Of a stretch of DNA of 64,000 nt, positions 3,175 to 11,401 are shown piece after piece; position 1 is the stretch's first letter, and every line of letters begins with the position of its first letter. The translations under genes and the position numbers were made by a program. The stretch covers positions 620,001 to 684,000 of the forward strand of contig NZ_FNFE01000002.1 of the NCBI RefSeq assembly GCF_900100335.1, read 5' to 3'. This stretch comes from Natronorubrum texcoconense (GTDB lineage Archaea; Halobacteriota; Halobacteria; Halobacteriales; Natrialbaceae). Below the pieces are notes generated by a model. It worked only from the letters and a program-made list of their open reading frames with translations. It was not told where the DNA came from and made no database searches.

Positions 3175-4425
3175 ATGAAACGCCGGACCTATCTCGCGAC
3201 GGCAACGGGGGCGACTGCAGCGACCGTAGCAGGCTGCATCGGACTCGGTGGTTCCGACACCGACGAGGAGGCGGACGACGACGATGAGACCACCGACGAC
3301 GGGCCGCCGGAACTCGAGGGACCCGACGAGGACGGGACGCTCGACGATTTCGACGATCTCGGCGCGTGGACGGTGGTCAGCGGCTCCATGTCCGCCGAAT
3401 CTGATCAGGCCGTGGCAGGAGATCAGTCCGTGCTGCTCGAGACCGACGCAGACGACCAGCAGGCCCGGATCGTCCGCGAACTTCCCGAACCCGTCAACTG
3501 CTCGACCGTGAATCTCGGGCTGGCCGTCGCGAGCGAGGAGACGATTACGCCGATAATCCAGCTGTTCGACGACGATGGTAATGTGATCGACTACCGCGCG
3601 ACGATCCATCCCGGCGGCCTGCAGCGCTGTAACTTCGGCGTCGCGAGGATGGACAGCGGCGTTGAGCTAACCGAAATCACCGACATTCACATCGCGTTTC
3701 TCTCCGCTGAGGACTCCGAAGACAGACTGTTGCTCGACGATCTCTACGCGGTCCCCAGACCCGAGGACGGGCAGGTGATGCTCCAGTTCGACGGCGGTCA
3801 CGAGTCGATCGAGTCGGAGGGGCTGCCGATTCTCGAGGCGTACGACTTCCCCGCCACGGTGTTCGTTCCGACGGATTTGGTCCGCGAGGACGACGACGCC
3901 GAAGGCGACTATCTCACCGAGGATCAGGTCGAGGAACTCGACGACGCTGGCTGCATGATCGCGAGCTACGCGGCGAACGGACAGATACTCGACAACTACG
4001 ACGAAGACGATCAGGCCGCTCAGCTCGTCGATGCACAGGAGTGGCTCGAAGACGAGGGCTACGAGAACGGGGCCCGCTACTTCTCGTATCCGGCCGGCCA
4101 GTACGACGAGGACACCCTCGATCTCGTCGCAGACACTTACGACGTCGGGTTTGCCGGACACCATCCCGTGCAGGGCCACGTCGTCAACGCGGCTCGCTAT
4201 CCCCGCCTCCTCAACCCAGACGTCGAAGACGCCGAGGAGGACCTCGAGCGAACGGCGAAACTCGGCGGGATCACCACGCTCTGTTACTACTCGCTCGAAG
4301 AGGACGACACGGTCGATCGGCTCGAGGAGACGATGGATCTCCTCGAGGACTACGTCGACGAGGGTGAACTCGAGGTCATCATGCCGGACGACCTCGAGAC
4401 CGAGTACGTGTTCGACGGCGAGTAG
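3175..4425 (+). CDS. Tat-exported lipoprotein with degenerate polysaccharide deacetylase domain
   Basis: A 416-residue protein with a twin-Arg start (MKRRTYLATA) and lipobox AGC (lipidated C21), then an acidic linker, a beta-rich region at about 60-195 that resembles a carbohydrate-binding module, and a NodB-like polysaccharide deacetylase fold at about 200-410. The catalytic motifs are altered: QFDGG (204-208) replaces TFDDG, ASYAANG replaces the His-x3-His metal motif, and FSYPAGQYD replaces RPPYG. It is therefore probably anchored outside the cell and binds, but may not de-N-acetylate, polysaccharide. The start is backed by the signal sequence. It stands alone between the IS element and the next gene. 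Confidence 0.75.
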   Translation: MKRRTYLATATGATAATVAGCIGLGGSDTDEEADDDDETTDDGPPELEGPDEDGTLDDFDDLGAWTVVSGSMSAESDQAVAGDQSVLLETDADDQQARIVRELPEPVNCSTVNLGLAVASEETITPIIQLFDDDGNVIDYRATIHPGGLQRCNFGVARMDSGVELTEITDIHIAFLSAEDSEDRLLLDDLYAVPRPEDGQVMLQFDGGHESIESEGLPILEAYDFPATVFVPTDLVREDDDAEGDYLTEDQVEELDDAGCMIASYAANGQILDNYDEDDQAAQLVDAQEWLEDEGYENGARYFSYPAGQYDEDTLDLVADTYDVGFAGHHPVQGHVVNAARYPRLLNPDVEDAEEDLERTAKLGGITTLCYYSLEEDDTVDRLEETMDLLEDYVDEGELEVIMPDDLETEYVFDGE

Positions 4426-5473: not shown

Positions 5474-6796
5474 ATGACTCTATCACGACGCTCGACAATC
5501 AAGGCGATCGGTATAGTTGGTGGCGGTTCGGCACTAAGCGGAACTGCACTTGCCATCAACGAGCACGAAGACGACGAGCGAGACGCCGACGAGGTACCGG
5601 ACGACGAAGAGGTGGGAGCGATTCGCGTCGGTCACTTCTCACCGGACGCCCCAAACGTCGACGTCTACGTCGACGACGAGCAGATCCTCACAGACCTCGC
5701 GTACGACGAACTCTCGCCGTATCTGGAGATCGCACCGGGAACCTACAACCTGACGATCACGGCTGCCGGCGACGATGAACCGGTCTACGAGGATACCCTC
5801 CCTGTCGACACGGATTACTACACGGCCGCGGCGATCGGCGAAATCGAAGGTGACGACGCTGACGACGAGCTGGAAGGGGCGGAAACCGCCTCGGCCATCC
5901 AGGACGACGAGTTCGACGACACTGACGACGTCGAGCCGGACGACGACGAAGACGTCCTCGACGACGAGGCGCCCGAGGAAGACGACGCGGCTGCTGAAGA
6001 AGACGAGGCAGTTGCCGAGGAAGACGACGAAGACGGACCCGGAACGTTCGACGTCCTCCTGCTGCTCGACCGAGAAGAGGTCGAACAGGAAGGCACGTCA
6101 CAGCTTCGACTGGTCCACGCCTCCCCCGACGCGCCCGTGCTCGACATCACGGACGACCAGGGACTCCCGCTCTACGAGGACGTCGGCTTCGGCGAGCCGT
6201 CTGGCTACGTTTCGTTCGAGCCCGGAGAGCAGACGCTCGAGTTGTTCGAAGCCGGCGAGAACGAGTTCGACGCGGAGTTCGACGAAGACGACGAGGAAAC
6301 CGAACAGCCGGACACCGCAGCGTCCATCCAGGAGGACGATGACGATGGCCCCGACCTGGATGATGAGGACGACGAAGACGAGGACGATGACCTCGAACTA
6401 GACGACGAGGATGATCTCGATGAGGACGACGAAGACGAAGTCATCGATCAGGCCGAACCCCTCGTCTCCATCGACGTCGAGCTCGAGGACGACACGGTGT
6501 ACACGGCGTTTGCAATCGGCTACTTCGAGGCCGAGGACGACGATGACGACCGACCCTTCGAGCTGCGCGTCGCCGTCGACGGTCGCGAAGAAGAAGACAC
6601 CGACCACGACGAGGCGCCCGACGAAGCGGAACCGGACGAAGAAGAAGTCGAAAACGGCGATGACGACGACTACGACGATGACGACGACTACGACGACGAT
6701 GAGGACGAGTACGGCGATGACGATGATGACGGGTACGACGACTACGACGATGACGACGAGCACGAGGAAGAAGAGCCGGTGACGGCCGACGACTGA
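5474..6796 (+). CDS. Tat-exported DUF4397 protein with long acidic inserts
   Basis: A 440-residue protein with a Tat signal (LSRRSTIKAIGIVGGG, cleavage after about residue 27). It has two DUF4397 domains, visible as VGHFSPDAPNVDVYVDD (about 52-68) and RLVHASPDAPVLDI (212-225). Each domain is interrupted in a loop by an Asp/Glu-rich insert, at about 124-190 and 264-325. Near the start of each insert is the motif TASAIQDD (138-145) or TAASIQED (281-288), which also occurs in the two secreted proteins at 8.2-11.4 kb. The C-terminal 60 residues are almost only Asp, Glu and Tyr. It is probably secreted. DUF4397 domains are extracellular beta-sandwiches of unknown binding role. Confidence 0.85.
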   Translation: MTLSRRSTIKAIGIVGGGSALSGTALAINEHEDDERDADEVPDDEEVGAIRVGHFSPDAPNVDVYVDDEQILTDLAYDELSPYLEIAPGTYNLTITAAGDDEPVYEDTLPVDTDYYTAAAIGEIEGDDADDELEGAETASAIQDDEFDDTDDVEPDDDEDVLDDEAPEEDDAAAEEDEAVAEEDDEDGPGTFDVLLLLDREEVEQEGTSQLRLVHASPDAPVLDITDDQGLPLYEDVGFGEPSGYVSFEPGEQTLELFEAGENEFDAEFDEDDEETEQPDTAASIQEDDDDGPDLDDEDDEDEDDDLELDDEDDLDEDDEDEVIDQAEPLVSIDVELEDDTVYTAFAIGYFEAEDDDDDRPFELRVAVDGREEEDTDHDEAPDEAEPDEEEVENGDDDDYDDDDDYDDDEDEYGDDDDDGYDDYDDDDEHEEEEPVTADD

Positions 6797-6834
6797 TCAC
6801 GGACGATCTTTCCGGGGAACCCCGGTTCGAGCGG

Positions 6835-6939
6835 TCATTTTTGGAGCGCGATTCGCCGTTTGAGGTCGGCCATCGCACGCACGAACAGCCACTGTTCAGA
6901 CTCCTGCACCCGGTGACAGCGGATCGTTCGTCGCACCAC
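6835..6939 (-). CDS. Possible 34-residue small protein
   Basis: A minus-strand frame with a GTG start encodes a basic, helix-prone 34-residue peptide ending ESEQWLFVRAMADLKRRIAL. Codon third positions are fairly GC-rich but not decisive. It could be a real small protein or the tail of a lost gene. Nothing else coding is visible between 6797 and 7185. Confidence 0.25.
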   Translation of the reverse strand: MVRRTIRCHRVQESEQWLFVRAMADLKRRIALQK

Positions 6940-7185
6940 TCCGACAGGAGCACTCTCCTGCCGTAGGAATTCGCTGTGCGGGCGCGAACGACGCTTTTGA
7001 CAGATGGTCGGTCGGGAAGCGACACGGACCGTTCACGGACGCCGCGGCCGGAACGGCCGGCAGACTGGCTTCCTGCCGCTGGCCGCGGGTCGCCGACCGA
7101 TACGAGATCGCGGACTCGGCGAGTACGACGTAGCCGTGGCTCGTCGGGCTGCAGCACACGATACGCTCGAGAAGAGCCAGGAGTG

Positions 7186-7461
7186 TTAGACGTCGACGTA
7201 CTGGTCGACCCACTCCTGACGGCGCTGCAGGACACGTCGCCCCTTCGGGGTCAGTGCGTAGTAGTTCGTCCGCCGATCGAGTTGGCCTTTCTCGACGAGT
7301 TCCTTCTCGACCAGCGTGTCGAGATTGGGATACAGCCGGCCGTGGGTGACCGGCTGATCGATGTACCGATTGATGTCGTCGAGTATCTCCTGTCCGGACG
7401 GACGGTCTTTACCTGCGATCACGTACAGCAAGTCACGTTGGAAGCCAGTTAACTGATCCAT
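7186..7461 (-). CDS. PadR-family transcriptional regulator
   Basis: A 91-residue winged-helix protein that matches the PadR N-terminal domain along its whole length. It starts FQRDLLYVIAGKDRPSGQEI; the recognition-helix region is VTHGRLYPNLDTLVEKELVEK and the wing is TNYYALTPKGRRVL. The long C-terminal dimerisation domain of larger PadR proteins is absent, as is usual for haloarchaeal members. TATAAC at about 7506-7511 lies some 45 bases upstream of the start, so a short leader is likely. The target genes are unknown; the divergent neighbour is a Nudix gene. Confidence 0.88.
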   Translation of the reverse strand: MDQLTGFQRDLLYVIAGKDRPSGQEILDDINRYIDQPVTHGRLYPNLDTLVEKELVEKGQLDRRTNYYALTPKGRRVLQRRQEWVDQYVDV

Positions 7462-7608
7462 GGATCACCCTCTGAATGACGACGTTCACCGATCTGTGGC
7501 TTTGTTATAGAGCAGGTACGATCGTCGGAGCGTCCGGAACGCACCGCGTAGGACCGCTGCTGTGCGTCACGCCGCACGCAGCGACGACGGTACCAGCGTG
7601 ACGCGGCG

Positions 7609-7615
7609 TTTTTGA
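7609..7615 (+). promoter_or_regulatory. TATA box of the Nudix gene
   Basis: TTTTTGA begins 30 bases before the ATG at 7639, which fits a leaderless transcript and decides this start over the one at 7612. Confidence 0.45.
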
Positions 7616-7638
7616 CGGTTACCGCCGTACAGCCCGGT

Positions 7639-8193
7639 ATGCCTCCGGATCCGCTCGCGTGGGAGACCCGAGATCGCCAGGTAGCCTATTCCTGCCCGGG
7701 CTTCGACGTCGTTAACGAGACCGTTCAGCTGCCAGATGGCATCGAAACCGAGTTCGACTACCTCTCCGAGCCGGCGAGCGTCTGCGTGCTCCCGTTCGCC
7801 CCCGACGGCGACGTCGTCTGCATCGAGGAGTGGCGCCAGGCCGTCGGTCGGATCAACCGCGGTCTCCCCGTGGGCGGGACCGAACCGGCTGACGACGACC
7901 TCGAGGCGGCGGCCCGACGCGAACTCGCCGAAGAAACCGGCCACGAGGCCGAGCGACTCGAGCCGCTGGTGACCGTCGAGCCGGCAAACGGCATCGCTGA
8001 TTCGGTGTTACACTTCTTCGTCGCCCACAGCTGTCGACCGACGGCCGAACAACGGCTCGACCACAACGAGAGTATCCGAGTGACCCGACGGCCCTACGGG
8101 GAGTTGCTCGAGGCCATCCGTGAGGGCGAAATCCGCGACGGGCGGACGGTGCTCGCCGTCTCGTACTATCAGCTGTTCGAGGCGGTGCCCTAA
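7639..8193 (+). CDS. Nudix hydrolase, ADP-ribose pyrophosphatase-like
   Basis: A 184-residue protein with a complete Nudix box: GG at the front, then AAARRELAEETGHEAE, carrying the metal-binding RELxEETG core. The region before the box (CIEEWRQAVGRINRGLPVGG) resembles NudF/ADP-ribose pyrophosphatases, where the Arg and Pro-x-Gly residues contact the nucleotide sugar. The likely reaction is hydrolysis of ADP-ribose or a similar nucleoside diphosphate derivative in the cytoplasm. The exact substrate cannot be read from the sequence. Confidence 0.88.
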   Translation: MPPDPLAWETRDRQVAYSCPGFDVVNETVQLPDGIETEFDYLSEPASVCVLPFAPDGDVVCIEEWRQAVGRINRGLPVGGTEPADDDLEAAARRELAEETGHEAERLEPLVTVEPANGIADSVLHFFVAHSCRPTAEQRLDHNESIRVTRRPYGELLEAIREGEIRDGRTVLAVSYYQLFEAVP

Positions 8194-8249
8194 AAAATCG
8201 CAACGGAGTGCGATCGGTCGGTCGACCGATCGGCGGTCACGGTCGGTCC

Positions 8250-9593
8250 TCAGTTCAGTACTGCGACCGAGGGCTGTTCGTCGTTCTCGTCTTCGTCGGC
8301 GTCGTCATCGGTGTCCGTGTCCGCTTCGTCGTCTTCCATTTCGTCGTCCTCGTCGTCAGCGACGTCCTCGAGATCGGCCGTATCGCCGAGGGTAACGGTA
8401 TCGGCGTTCATGGTGTCGACCGACATCGCCGACGCGGAGGCCTCGGAGACGACGACCTCGTCTTCTTCGTCAGTCGCTTCGTCGTCGGCCTCATCGTCCA
8501 TCTCGTCCTCGTCGTTAGCATCGTCGTCCTGGATTGCTGCGTCGGTCGCTGCCTCGTCGTTCTGGTCGTCGGCAGCGCCGTTCTCGTCGTCAGCTTCCTC
8601 GAGCGAGTCGATCGTCATCGAGTCGATCGAGACGCTTTCGACGTCGAACTGCTCGATGGTGAGGGATTCGACTTCGTCGCCGTTCGCGTCGTCAGTTTCT
8701 TCGTCTTCGTCGTTGGCGTCGGTCTCGTCTTCATCATCGGCATCGGTCTCGTCTTCGTCAGCCTCATCGTCCTCGTCGTCGCCATCGAGGAGACCGCCGA
8801 AGAAGTCGCTGACCTGATCGATGATGCCGTCGTCCTCCTCGATCTCGAGGTCGTCGACCGTCATCTGTTCGACGTCCATGGACTCGATGGTGAGCTCCTG
8901 GACGGTGAGTGAGTCAGTGTCCTCATCGAGGAAGTCGGCTTCGCCGTTCTCGTCAGTTTCGTCGTCTTCCTCGTCGACGCCGGCAGCGTCCTCGTCGGTC
9001 TCGTCTTCATCGTCCTGGACGGCAGCAGCGGTTTCCGCCTCGTCGTCCTCGTCAGCGTTCGCGTCGTCCTCAGCCTCGTCTTCGTCAACCGCTTCGTCCT
9101 CGTCGGCATCCGCAACCGGCTCGCCGTCGAGTTCGAGATCGGTGAACGAAACGTTCTCGAGTTCGAGTTGCTCGATCTCGATATCGGAGATCGTCACCTG
9201 CTCATCGGTGTCGGCGTCGTCGTCCATCTCGTCGTCAGCCTCCTCCTCGTCCTGCTGGATGGCTGCGCCGGTCTCCGTTTCTTCGTCATTGTCGTCAGCA
9301 CCGTTCTCCTCGCTCTCGTTCGCCTCGTCTTCGTCGTCAGCCTCGTCGATCTCCTCCTCGAGTGCCTCGTCGTCGACGTCGAACTGATCGACGTTCAACT
9401 CTTCGATCGTCGCGTTCTCGACGGTGACGTCCTCGAGGTCGAGGGTTTCGACCTGTACGTTTTCGAGTGATGCGCTCGTGTCTCCGGCGTCGTCGTTCGC
9501 CCCTGCGGATGCGCCAGCGAGGGCGGGACCCCCCGAGAGGGCGACCAGCAGCGCCACGAACACCACACCGACTGTCTGCAATCGTGAACTCAT
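8250..9593 (-). CDS. Secreted acidic period-5 solenoid protein A
   Basis: A 447-residue protein with a Sec-type signal peptide (VVFVALLVALSGGPALA, cleavage near 26-30) and no membrane anchor. Five hydrophobic-polar cassettes (about 46-73, 133-155, 228-252, 310-331, 379-405) each show a strict five-residue period, for example LTI-EQ-FDV-ES-VSI-DS-MTI, as in pentapeptide-repeat right-handed beta-helices. They are joined by linkers of nearly pure Asp/Glu. Three linkers carry T-x-A-x-I/V-Q-D/Q-D (108-115, 188-195, 350-357). It ends in SVAVLN. It is a paralogue of the gene directly upstream. Likely outside the cell; the binding role is unknown. Confidence 0.8.
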   Translation of the reverse strand: MSSRLQTVGVVFVALLVALSGGPALAGASAGANDDAGDTSASLENVQVETLDLEDVTVENATIEELNVDQFDVDDEALEEEIDEADDEDEANESEENGADDNDEETETGAAIQQDEEEADDEMDDDADTDEQVTISDIEIEQLELENVSFTDLELDGEPVADADEDEAVDEDEAEDDANADEDDEAETAAAVQDDEDETDEDAAGVDEEDDETDENGEADFLDEDTDSLTVQELTIESMDVEQMTVDDLEIEEDDGIIDQVSDFFGGLLDGDDEDDEADEDETDADDEDETDANDEDEETDDANGDEVESLTIEQFDVESVSIDSMTIDSLEEADDENGAADDQNDEAATDAAIQDDDANDEDEMDDEADDEATDEEDEVVVSEASASAMSVDTMNADTVTLGDTADLEDVADDEDDEMEDDEADTDTDDDADEDENDEQPSVAVLN

Positions 9594-9668
9594 GCACTCG
9601 CTGTTACCGTCCAGTGACGGCTAAAACGAGCCGACTGTTACGGCGTTGTCCCGGAGAAACGCACAGTT
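9594..9668 (-). repeat. Conserved upstream block, copy A
   Basis: The 75 bases before the start of solenoid protein A align without gaps to 11402-11476 before its paralogue. A nearly identical core (TGACGGCTAAAACGAG-x-CGACTGTTACG on the plus strand) lies at the same distance from each ATG. It contains the TATA box. Weaker similarity continues to about 9800. I see no gene between 9594 and 9940. Confidence 0.8.
9621..9628 (-). promoter_or_regulatory. TATA box of solenoid gene A
   Basis: CGTTTTAG on the minus strand, about 28-35 bases before the ATG, conserved exactly before the paralogue. CGTAACAGTCG directly upstream is also conserved and could be a BRE or operator. Confidence 0.55.
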
Positions 9669-9940
9669 AGCAATCACGACGAGAGCGCTAATCTCGCGTT
9701 CATCGTTATCGGTTCGATGACGGTCTTCAGCGGGCGTCAATCGGCCGAAATCGGCCTTCTGCCTGCGATCGCCACCGGCTTATCTCACTCGGCGAAGAAC
9801 GAATCGTTACCGGGTCCGGTCGACGGTTCGAATCGCTGAGACGGGTATAGAACACTCTCTCGAGCGAACGTGGTCACAAAAAGAACGGCAACCGATAACG
9901 CGGTCAGCACCGCGCTGACCGGCGTGTTACGTCGCGTCGA

Positions 9941-11401
9941 TCAGTTCAGGACGCCGAGGATTCCGTCGTCATCCTCCTCTTCGTCGTTCTCGTCATCCTC
10001 GTCTTCATCGTCGTCGAGGAGGTCATCGTCTTCCTCGTCGTCGTCCATCTCGTCGTCATCGGCTTCCTCGTCGTCGATGTCCTCGAGGTCGGCAGCGTCG
10101 CCGAACGTCAGGGTCTCGGCGGTTGCGTCACCGACGTCGATCGTGGATGCGGAGACGTGTGCGATGGTCTCCTCGTCAGCGTCGTCGTCCTCGTCGAGTG
10201 CGTCGTCGTCAGCCTCGTCGTCTTCGTCGTCGAGGCCGACGTCGTCGTCATCGTCGTCTTGGATTGCAGCGTCGGTCGCTGCCTCGTCGTCATCGTCGTT
10301 GAGGAGGTCATCGTCGTCGTCAGCTTCGGCGTCGTCAGCCTCATCGTCTGCCTCCTCGTCGTCAGCTTCCTCGACCGTCTCGACCGTCATCGAGTCGACG
10401 GTGATCTCGTCAACGTCGAACTGCTCGATGGTGAGTTCGTCGATCTCTTCGGCTTCGGCGTCGTCAGCGTCGTCCATCTCGTCTTCGTCGTCAGCCTCAT
10501 CATCTTCGTCGTCGACGCCGACATCGTCGTCATTGTCGTCCTGGATGGCGGCGTTAGTTTCTGCCTCGTCTTCGTCGTCAGCGTCGGCATCGTCAGCATC
10601 AGCGTCGTCCATCTCGTCGTCTTCATCCATGGCGTCGTCAGCGTCTTCACCGACGGTCAGCTCGTCGATGGTCAGCGTTTCGACATCCATGGTTTCGATG
10701 GTGAGCTCTTCGACGGTGACCTCGTCAGCGTCCTCGTCGATGAAGTCGAGCTCGTCGTCGGCCTCATCGTCCATCTCGTCTTCGTCGTCGACGCCGACGT
10801 CATCGTCCTCGTCGTCGACACCGACGTCGTCATCGTCGTCCTGGATGACTGCGTCAGTTTCCGCCTCGTCGGCGTCGTCGTCGAGGGCGTCATCCTCGTC
10901 GTCCGCGTCAGCGTCCTCGAGTTCCTCGTCCTCACCGACTTCGAGGTCCTCGATGGAGACGTCCTCGAGTTCGAGGTGCTCGATCTCGATGTCCGAGATC
11001 GTCACTGCTTCCTCGTCAGCGTCGTCGTCGACGCCGACGTCATCCGCTTCGTCGTCGTCAGCCGCGGCGTCGTCATCGTCCTGAATTGCAGCGTCGGTTG
11101 CTGCCTCGTCAGTGTCGTCGTCTTCGTCGTCAGCCGCGTCGTCGTCAGCTTCGTCGAGTTCGTCCTCGAGCGCTTGCGTGTCAGCGTCGAGTTCCTCGAC
11201 GTTCAGCTCTTCGATCGTCGCATTCTCGATGGTAACGTTGTCGAGTTCGAGCGTTTCGACCTCAGTATCCTGAAGCGTTACACTCATTTCTGCGCCGTCG
11301 TCGGTCGCTCCTGATGTTGCGCCCGCGAGGGCGGGGCCCCCTGAAAGGGCGACCATCAGCGCGACGAACACTACACCGAGTTTCTGCGATCGTGAATCCA
11401 T
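9941..11401 (-). CDS. Secreted acidic period-5 solenoid protein B
   Basis: A 486-residue paralogue of the next gene (protein A), with a near-identical signal peptide (VVFVALMVALSGGPALAGA) and the same five cassettes in the same order (about 47-75, 143-165, 227-251, 331-353, 421-445), for example LTI-ET-MDV-ET-LTI-DE-LTV. All four linkers carry the T-[DN]-A-[AV]-I-Q-D-D motif (from 102, 182, 282, 376), and three are followed by DVG[VL]DDEDD. It ends in ILGVLN. The protein is about half Asp plus Glu. No membrane anchor is visible, so it is probably released or bound to the S-layer by charge. The function is unknown. Confidence 0.8.
   Translation of the reverse strand: MDSRSQKLGVVFVALMVALSGGPALAGATSGATDDGAEMSVTLQDTEVETLELDNVTIENATIEELNVEELDADTQALEDELDEADDDAADDEDDDTDEAATDAAIQDDDDAAADDDEADDVGVDDDADEEAVTISDIEIEHLELEDVSIEDLEVGEDEELEDADADDEDDALDDDADEAETDAVIQDDDDDVGVDDEDDDVGVDDEDEMDDEADDELDFIDEDADEVTVEELTIETMDVETLTIDELTVGEDADDAMDEDDEMDDADADDADADDEDEAETNAAIQDDNDDDVGVDDEDDEADDEDEMDDADDAEAEEIDELTIEQFDVDEITVDSMTVETVEEADDEEADDEADDAEADDDDDLLNDDDDEAATDAAIQDDDDDDVGLDDEDDEADDDALDEDDDADEETIAHVSASTIDVGDATAETLTFGDAADLEDIDDEEADDDEMDDDEEDDDLLDDDEDEDDENDEEEDDDGILGVLN

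Follow-up and report, generated by a model that had tools for sequence, protein, structure and literature searches.

Short linear motifs (SLiMs) are peptides of 3-12 residues that recur in disordered regions of unrelated proteins and whose anchor residues are more conserved than the surrounding linker. Here we describe a peptide of this size, TxAxIQ(D/E)(D/E), that recurs in the acidic linkers of exported proteins encoded in a 64,000-nt stretch of the Natronorubrum texcoconense genome (contig NZ_FNFE01000002.1, positions 620,001 to 684,000; hereafter the window) and in some other members of the Natrialbaceae. With SLiMs it has in common its length of 8-9 residues, its location in regions predicted to be disordered, its appearance as a conserved island in a fast-evolving linker and its recurrence in unrelated proteins (65 copies, four families), although whole copies come and go. 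It differs from them in residing in archaeal exported proteins, in having no known binding domain and in apparently arising as part of a linker cassette instead of through point mutations. The archaeosortase tags of the PGF-CTERM type are likewise short sequences common to unrelated exported haloarchaeal proteins; those tags are C-terminal and accompanied by a transmembrane segment, whereas every copy of the motif is internal and the motif is repeated.

Three further systems resemble this one at the level of the coding DNA. Rickettsia palindromic elements (RPEs) are in-frame inserts that code a conserved peptide in unrelated genes, and as DNA they are palindromes of ~150 bp (Ogata et al. 2000, 2002, via PMC10969869). 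In-frame insertion in unrelated genes is found here as well, but palindromic, hairpin-forming DNA of ~100-150 bp is not; moreover, synonymous codons have diverged, the peptide is constrained and only exported proteins are involved. PARCELs also are repeat-coding units scattered among surface proteins with a punctate distribution, but they consist of tandem 25-residue amphipathic units with dyad symmetry (PMC2996958), whereas the present motif spans nine residues, usually occurs once per linker and lacks such symmetry. The nearest archaeal case is that of the Borg tandem repeats, in which disordered linkers of archaeal proteins arise through the in-frame turnover of repeats (PMC9879509); that process is extrachromosomal and repeat-driven, whereas here a fixed, non-repeat word persists amid repeat turnover.

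A peptide recurring in linkers of exported proteins

All nine motif copies that a sequence-only reading had listed in the window were confirmed at their coordinates and are in frame. Two of them, TASAIQDD (5885..5908) and TAASIQED (6314..6337), lie in a forward-strand gene (5474..6796) encoding a DUF4397 protein with a duplicated domain (Pfam PF14344, E 9.9e-31), a Tat-type signal peptide and acidic inserts. The other seven belong to two reverse-strand genes for exported proteins made of beta-repeat segments with acidic linkers between them. Solenoid A (8250..9593), with five such segments, carries TGAAIQQD in linker 1 (9249..9272), TAAAVQDD in linker 2 (9009..9032) and TDAAIQDD in linker 4 (8523..8546), all on the reverse strand, as are the four copies in solenoid B (9941..11401): TDAAIQDD in linker 1 (11075..11098), TDAVIQDD in linker 2 (10835..10858), TNAAIQDD in linker 3 (10535..10558) and TDAAIQDD in linker 4 (10253..10276), the last of which is absent in the closest relative, G009. 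The strict pattern first proposed fits eight of the nine, TASAIQDD departing from it by the serine at position 3 (numbering from T = 1). Solenoids A and B are 59% identical across nearly their full length and thus paralogous, so the window holds two unrelated motif-bearing families and not three; the DUF4397 protein and the solenoids are indeed unrelated. Nor does the motif sit at the front of an Asp/Glu-rich segment, as had been thought: it lies inside acidic segments that are similarly acidic on both sides (45-70% Asp plus Glu in the 20 residues upstream, 53-80% in the 30 residues from position 7). Half of the glutamines of solenoid B are motif glutamines.

Composition-preserving shuffles placed this recurrence far above the background expected of acidic proteins, yielding expected numbers of 5e-5, 5.5e-4 and 3e-4 copies for the DUF4397 protein, solenoid A and solenoid B, respectively, against 2, 3 and 4 observed. 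Reversed patterns, used as a control, had no match throughout the genomes listed with the strict pattern, and almost invariably none with looser ones.

A whole-genome pattern search uncovered two further copies in the same genome (G000), in two more unrelated exported proteins. One is a lipoprotein with a CarboxypepD_reg-type/Ig-like domain (G000:C4:190147), in which an acidic insert containing ETDASIQDDD splits the domain, as judged from Pfam matches on both sides; this protein carries one copy in its insert across three genera, and the motif glutamine is often its sole glutamine beyond the signal region. The other (G000:C4:123258) is exported by the Tat route, contains 4Fe-4S dicluster domains and has AETDSFIQDD in a linker close to the C-terminal end. 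The hosts therefore amount to four unrelated exported families (DUF4397, beta-solenoid, CarboxypepD_reg-type lipoprotein and 4Fe-4S protein), and the linker copies are confined to exported proteins. From 65 copies in 12 genomes we refined the consensus to [ED][TV]x[AS][AVSF][IV]Q[DE][DE], which adds an acidic residue before T1. Position 1 is T in 61 copies and V in 4; position 2 is A, G or D, position 3 A or S, position 4 mostly A, S, V or F, position 5 I or V, position 7 D or E and position 8 D. Position 6 is Q in all 65, a count partly imposed by the search pattern, for which orthologous copy pairs (see below) provide the unbiased test.

Of the look-alikes checked beyond the four families, most fell in ordinary proteins and not in acidic linkers. 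A protein without Pfam match has ETEAAIQEN right after an N-terminal hydrophobic segment (L301; G000:C2:1301608, reverse strand; also G009:C1:3778849) and is a possible further host. In a DUF7345/DUF7343 protein (L043, G000:C10:194044, forward strand; L113), the motif-like ATGATVQEDEE, differing at position 4, directly follows the signal sequence.

The sequence-only reading also held that the acidic segments interrupt the DUF4397 domain as an inserted cassette would. AlphaFold2 models of this protein and of solenoid B, built on shallow alignments and of low confidence, are in line with that view. In the DUF4397 model, inserts with pLDDT <50 break the series of beta-strands at approximately residues 112-192 and 260-330. 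Insert 1 (approximately 5849..6040, forward strand) falls between a strand ending in AAIGE and the strand TFDVLLL, and insert 2 (approximately 6260..6439, forward strand) was delimited by the model together with homologue comparison. A comparison of homologues with and without inserts revealed that the G095 protein (L175) runs from strand to strand at the first site with no insert. Because the inserts fall between predicted strands and one homologue lacks the first of them, the cassette description holds. In solenoid B, beta segments reach pLDDT values up to 83, while nearly all linker residues, motifs included, stay below 50. AlphaFold2 predicted no docking of the motif to the protein that carries it, but these models could not have shown such docking reliably. 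A Foldseek search of the solenoid B model against the PDB returned no match, which carries little weight at pLDDT 49, and the DUF4397 sequence had no match in the PDB either.

Anchor residues persist while linkers turn over

The linkers that harbor the motif differ in kind from genome to genome, consisting of Asp/Glu repeats in some and of N-E-S/N-E-T repeats, that is, N-glycosylation sequons, in G005 and genus g10. The motif is kept in Asp/Glu, sequon-repeat and Gly/Ser-rich linkers alike: its flanks in the lipoprotein are, depending on the genome, purely D/E or made of N-E-S/N-E-T repeats, and the 4Fe-4S protein of G032 carries ETGSFVQED within a Gly/Ser-rich G/S/N-E-T linker. This persistence in sequon-rich and Gly/Ser-rich linkers of related genomes does not support a motif that belongs to an acidic chemistry and makes cation binding by it, one of the roles first suggested, unlikely; the calcium-binding sequence Dx[DN]xDG (PMC3123361) is absent from the motif, which also survives without acidic flanks. 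From one genome to another, orthologous exported proteins exchange Asp/Glu repeats for N-x-S/T sequon repeats in their linkers, or the reverse, and several unrelated proteins do so together (L079, L112, L116, L117, L187-L201, L252-L254). The G035 solenoid (L253) contains a tandem duplication of an entire linker unit, ~30 residues long and with the motif in it (TAAAIQEDEDDGIGLEDNETEDNATEDNE).

Orthologous copies provided the unbiased test of retention, with 25 aligned copy pairs from five genome pairs in which a copy was present on either side. T1 and Q6 were changed in 0 of 50 cases. The only exchanges seen were A with S at position 3 and I with V at position 5, whereas variation at positions 2 and 4 was freer; otherwise the entire copy was lost. 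With ~15% substitution in the flanking linker residues, 0/50 anchor changes would be expected by chance with a probability of ~3e-4. This retention, with codons that differ between copies, bears out the proposal that the peptide itself is kept and is the best evidence for selection acting on it.

A patchy distribution within the Natrialbaceae

Orthologues of all three window genes carry the motif, and linker copies were found in 12 of the 125 Natrialbaceae genomes surveyed: 5 of 10 in the genus of the window, 6 of 6 searched in genus g10, and G107. The host families themselves are far more widespread, with DUF4397 relatives in 95 and the solenoid family in 100 of the 125 genomes as found by search. 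Genomes have the motif in several proteins or in none, with a single exception that has solenoid copies only, and copies in DUF4397, lipoprotein or 4Fe-4S hosts were found only where the solenoids bear the motif too. Six motif-negative genomes (G001, G002, G004, G007, G008 and G108) have the DUF4397 protein with long low-complexity linkers, and most of them also keep the lipoprotein, again without the motif. In four of these (G001, G007, G008 and G108), searches detected no solenoids at the locus or elsewhere in the genome. The solenoid pair sits between the NUDIX and tgtA genes (window, L035-L041 and many family genomes); in those four genomes it is cleanly absent and the two genes directly adjoin. 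Matches elsewhere in the order, where examined, were single and located in ordinary proteins, not in acidic linkers. In trees of two neighboring genes, the positive genomes were grouped yet did not form one clade; a single origin followed by later losses is the simplest history of this distribution.

The solenoids are an undescribed, widespread Natrialbaceae family. Solenoids A and B had no match in Pfam or NCBIfam and the family none in a plasmid collection, and literature searches retrieved no description of either the motif or the family. Upstream of the DUF4397 gene, the window encodes a lipoprotein with an acidic linker and a polysaccharide deacetylase domain (3175-4425), and a similar protein also precedes DUF4397 in G009 and G107.

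Docking site, processing site or mobile cassette

Collectively, these data are best accommodated by a lineage-specific short linear motif that resides in in-frame linker cassettes, whose peptide is under selection and which most likely serves as a docking site for an extracellular partner, a reading to which we assign a probability of roughly 0.5. The cassettes would be disordered linkers placed in loops of unrelated folds, and they may have spread by ancient copying of DNA between genes, probably through recombination of GAC/GAG-rich linker DNA. Because positions 1, 3, 5 and 6 are fixed while 2 and 4 are free, the peptide could be bound in an extended, strand-like form, in a groove or by sheet addition, by a common partner outside the cell, and unrelated surface proteins would thereby dock to one receptor or matrix. 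Unrelated genes of one genome resemble each other more than expected in the residues at the variable positions (11 of 1000 genome-label shuffles as low), with no excess likeness of synonymous codons (325 of 1000 as low); peptide flavor alike without codon likeness would point to a genome-specific partner rather than to recent copying of DNA. Recent gene conversion between the host genes was considered and finds no support in the synonymous codons.

Several points weigh against this interpretation. Plain motif identity between close relatives is not clearly above that of the flanks, because whole copies come and go by insertion and deletion. The permutation signal is modest, the co-occurrence of copies in several proteins is confounded by shared ancestry, given that the 12 positive genomes cluster in trees, and the structure predictions, built on shallow alignments, are of low confidence. 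The docking partner and the function, moreover, are putative.

Among the alternatives, the one that fares best, albeit unlikely, is that the motif is a processing site, at which a protease outside the cell or in the membrane would cleave, for instance behind the small residue of position 3 or 4, and so free the linker-joined domains. T-x-[AS] followed by a small residue at position 4 does resemble the -3/-1 arrangement of a signal-peptidase-like site, mature N-termini in these genomes look alike (TALA-IQEDD in the G003 DUF4397 protein), and haloarchaeal extracellular serine proteases are reported to cleave other secreted proteins (PMC12893001). The solenoids with several copies, one per linker, would also suit such a role, but cleavage at all of these copies would break the solenoid into pieces. 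Sites of the signal-peptidase-like type rarely need a fixed glutamine, whereas the most fixed residues of the motif are T1 and Q6.

Somewhat less probable still is a self-assembly sticker, in which the motif, as the main aliphatic island of a highly charged linker, would pair with other copies as a short beta-zipper and cross-link the solenoids, the lipoprotein and further surface proteins at high salt. The alternation of fixed and free positions, the several copies per solenoid, the joint presence of copies in exported proteins and the acidic or glycosylated spacers around the motif all fit this idea; however, the strict glutamine and the acidic pair that follows it are more specific than such pairing needs, and hosts with a single copy, namely the lipoprotein and the 4Fe-4S protein, would gain little from homotypic contacts.

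The coding DNA bears on a third alternative, a selfish in-frame cassette akin to RPEs that spreads as DNA and whose peptide has no function. The glutamate preceding T1 is encoded by GAA in 35 of 47 copies, compared with 26% for the remaining E-T pairs of comparable genes, and T1 by ACG in only 3 of 61 copies, compared with 44%. Common descent of the copies makes these counts non-independent. This GAA-ACC/ACT bias is seen in unrelated host genes, which suggests an old common DNA source of the copies. Degenerate tandem repeats that keep the reading frame occur in the window linkers, most of them with a period of 9-42 bases, and could plausibly serve as a substrate for exchange. In-frame insertion into loops of unrelated host genes likewise agrees with a mobile cassette, as does the 4Fe-4S copy gained or lost between G000 and G009, whose 4Fe-4S proteins are 93% identical, the motif being present only in that of G000. 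Nevertheless, motif DNA folds no better than control linkers (equal folding z-scores, Mann-Whitney p 0.81), which disfavors a palindromic or hairpin element; synonymous positions are no more alike within than between genomes; linker copies are restricted to exported proteins; and the anchor residues are retained. On balance, we regard a purely selfish origin as improbable. Finally, a compositional artefact of haloarchaeal acidic linkers, conceivable given their low complexity and many slippage-type repeats, is ruled out by the shuffle and genome-wide controls, since only ~0.001 copies are expected over the three window proteins, 113 of the 125 family genomes have no linker copy although most possess the same genes and linkers, and stray matches, where checked, fall in ordinary proteins outside acidic linkers.

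If the docking-site interpretation holds, it may be extended, more tentatively, to a peptide-tag network at the cell surface of some Natrialbaceae, in which one extracellular factor would recognize TxAxIQ(D/E)(D/E), exported proteins of unrelated families, a respiratory-type iron-sulfur protein among them, would have been recruited by in-frame copying of linker cassettes, and the flavor of the tag would change with the partner. SLiMs are familiar in eukaryotes, and our literature searches found no such network for archaeal surface proteins. The motif provides a compact, testable case of a fixed word within freely rearranging linkers, common to four or more exported families that are unrelated; 12 genomes have it, and close relatives with the same genes lack it. 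As such, it opens a way towards a shared envelope partner and illustrates how the copying of linker cassettes may add a motif to unrelated proteins.

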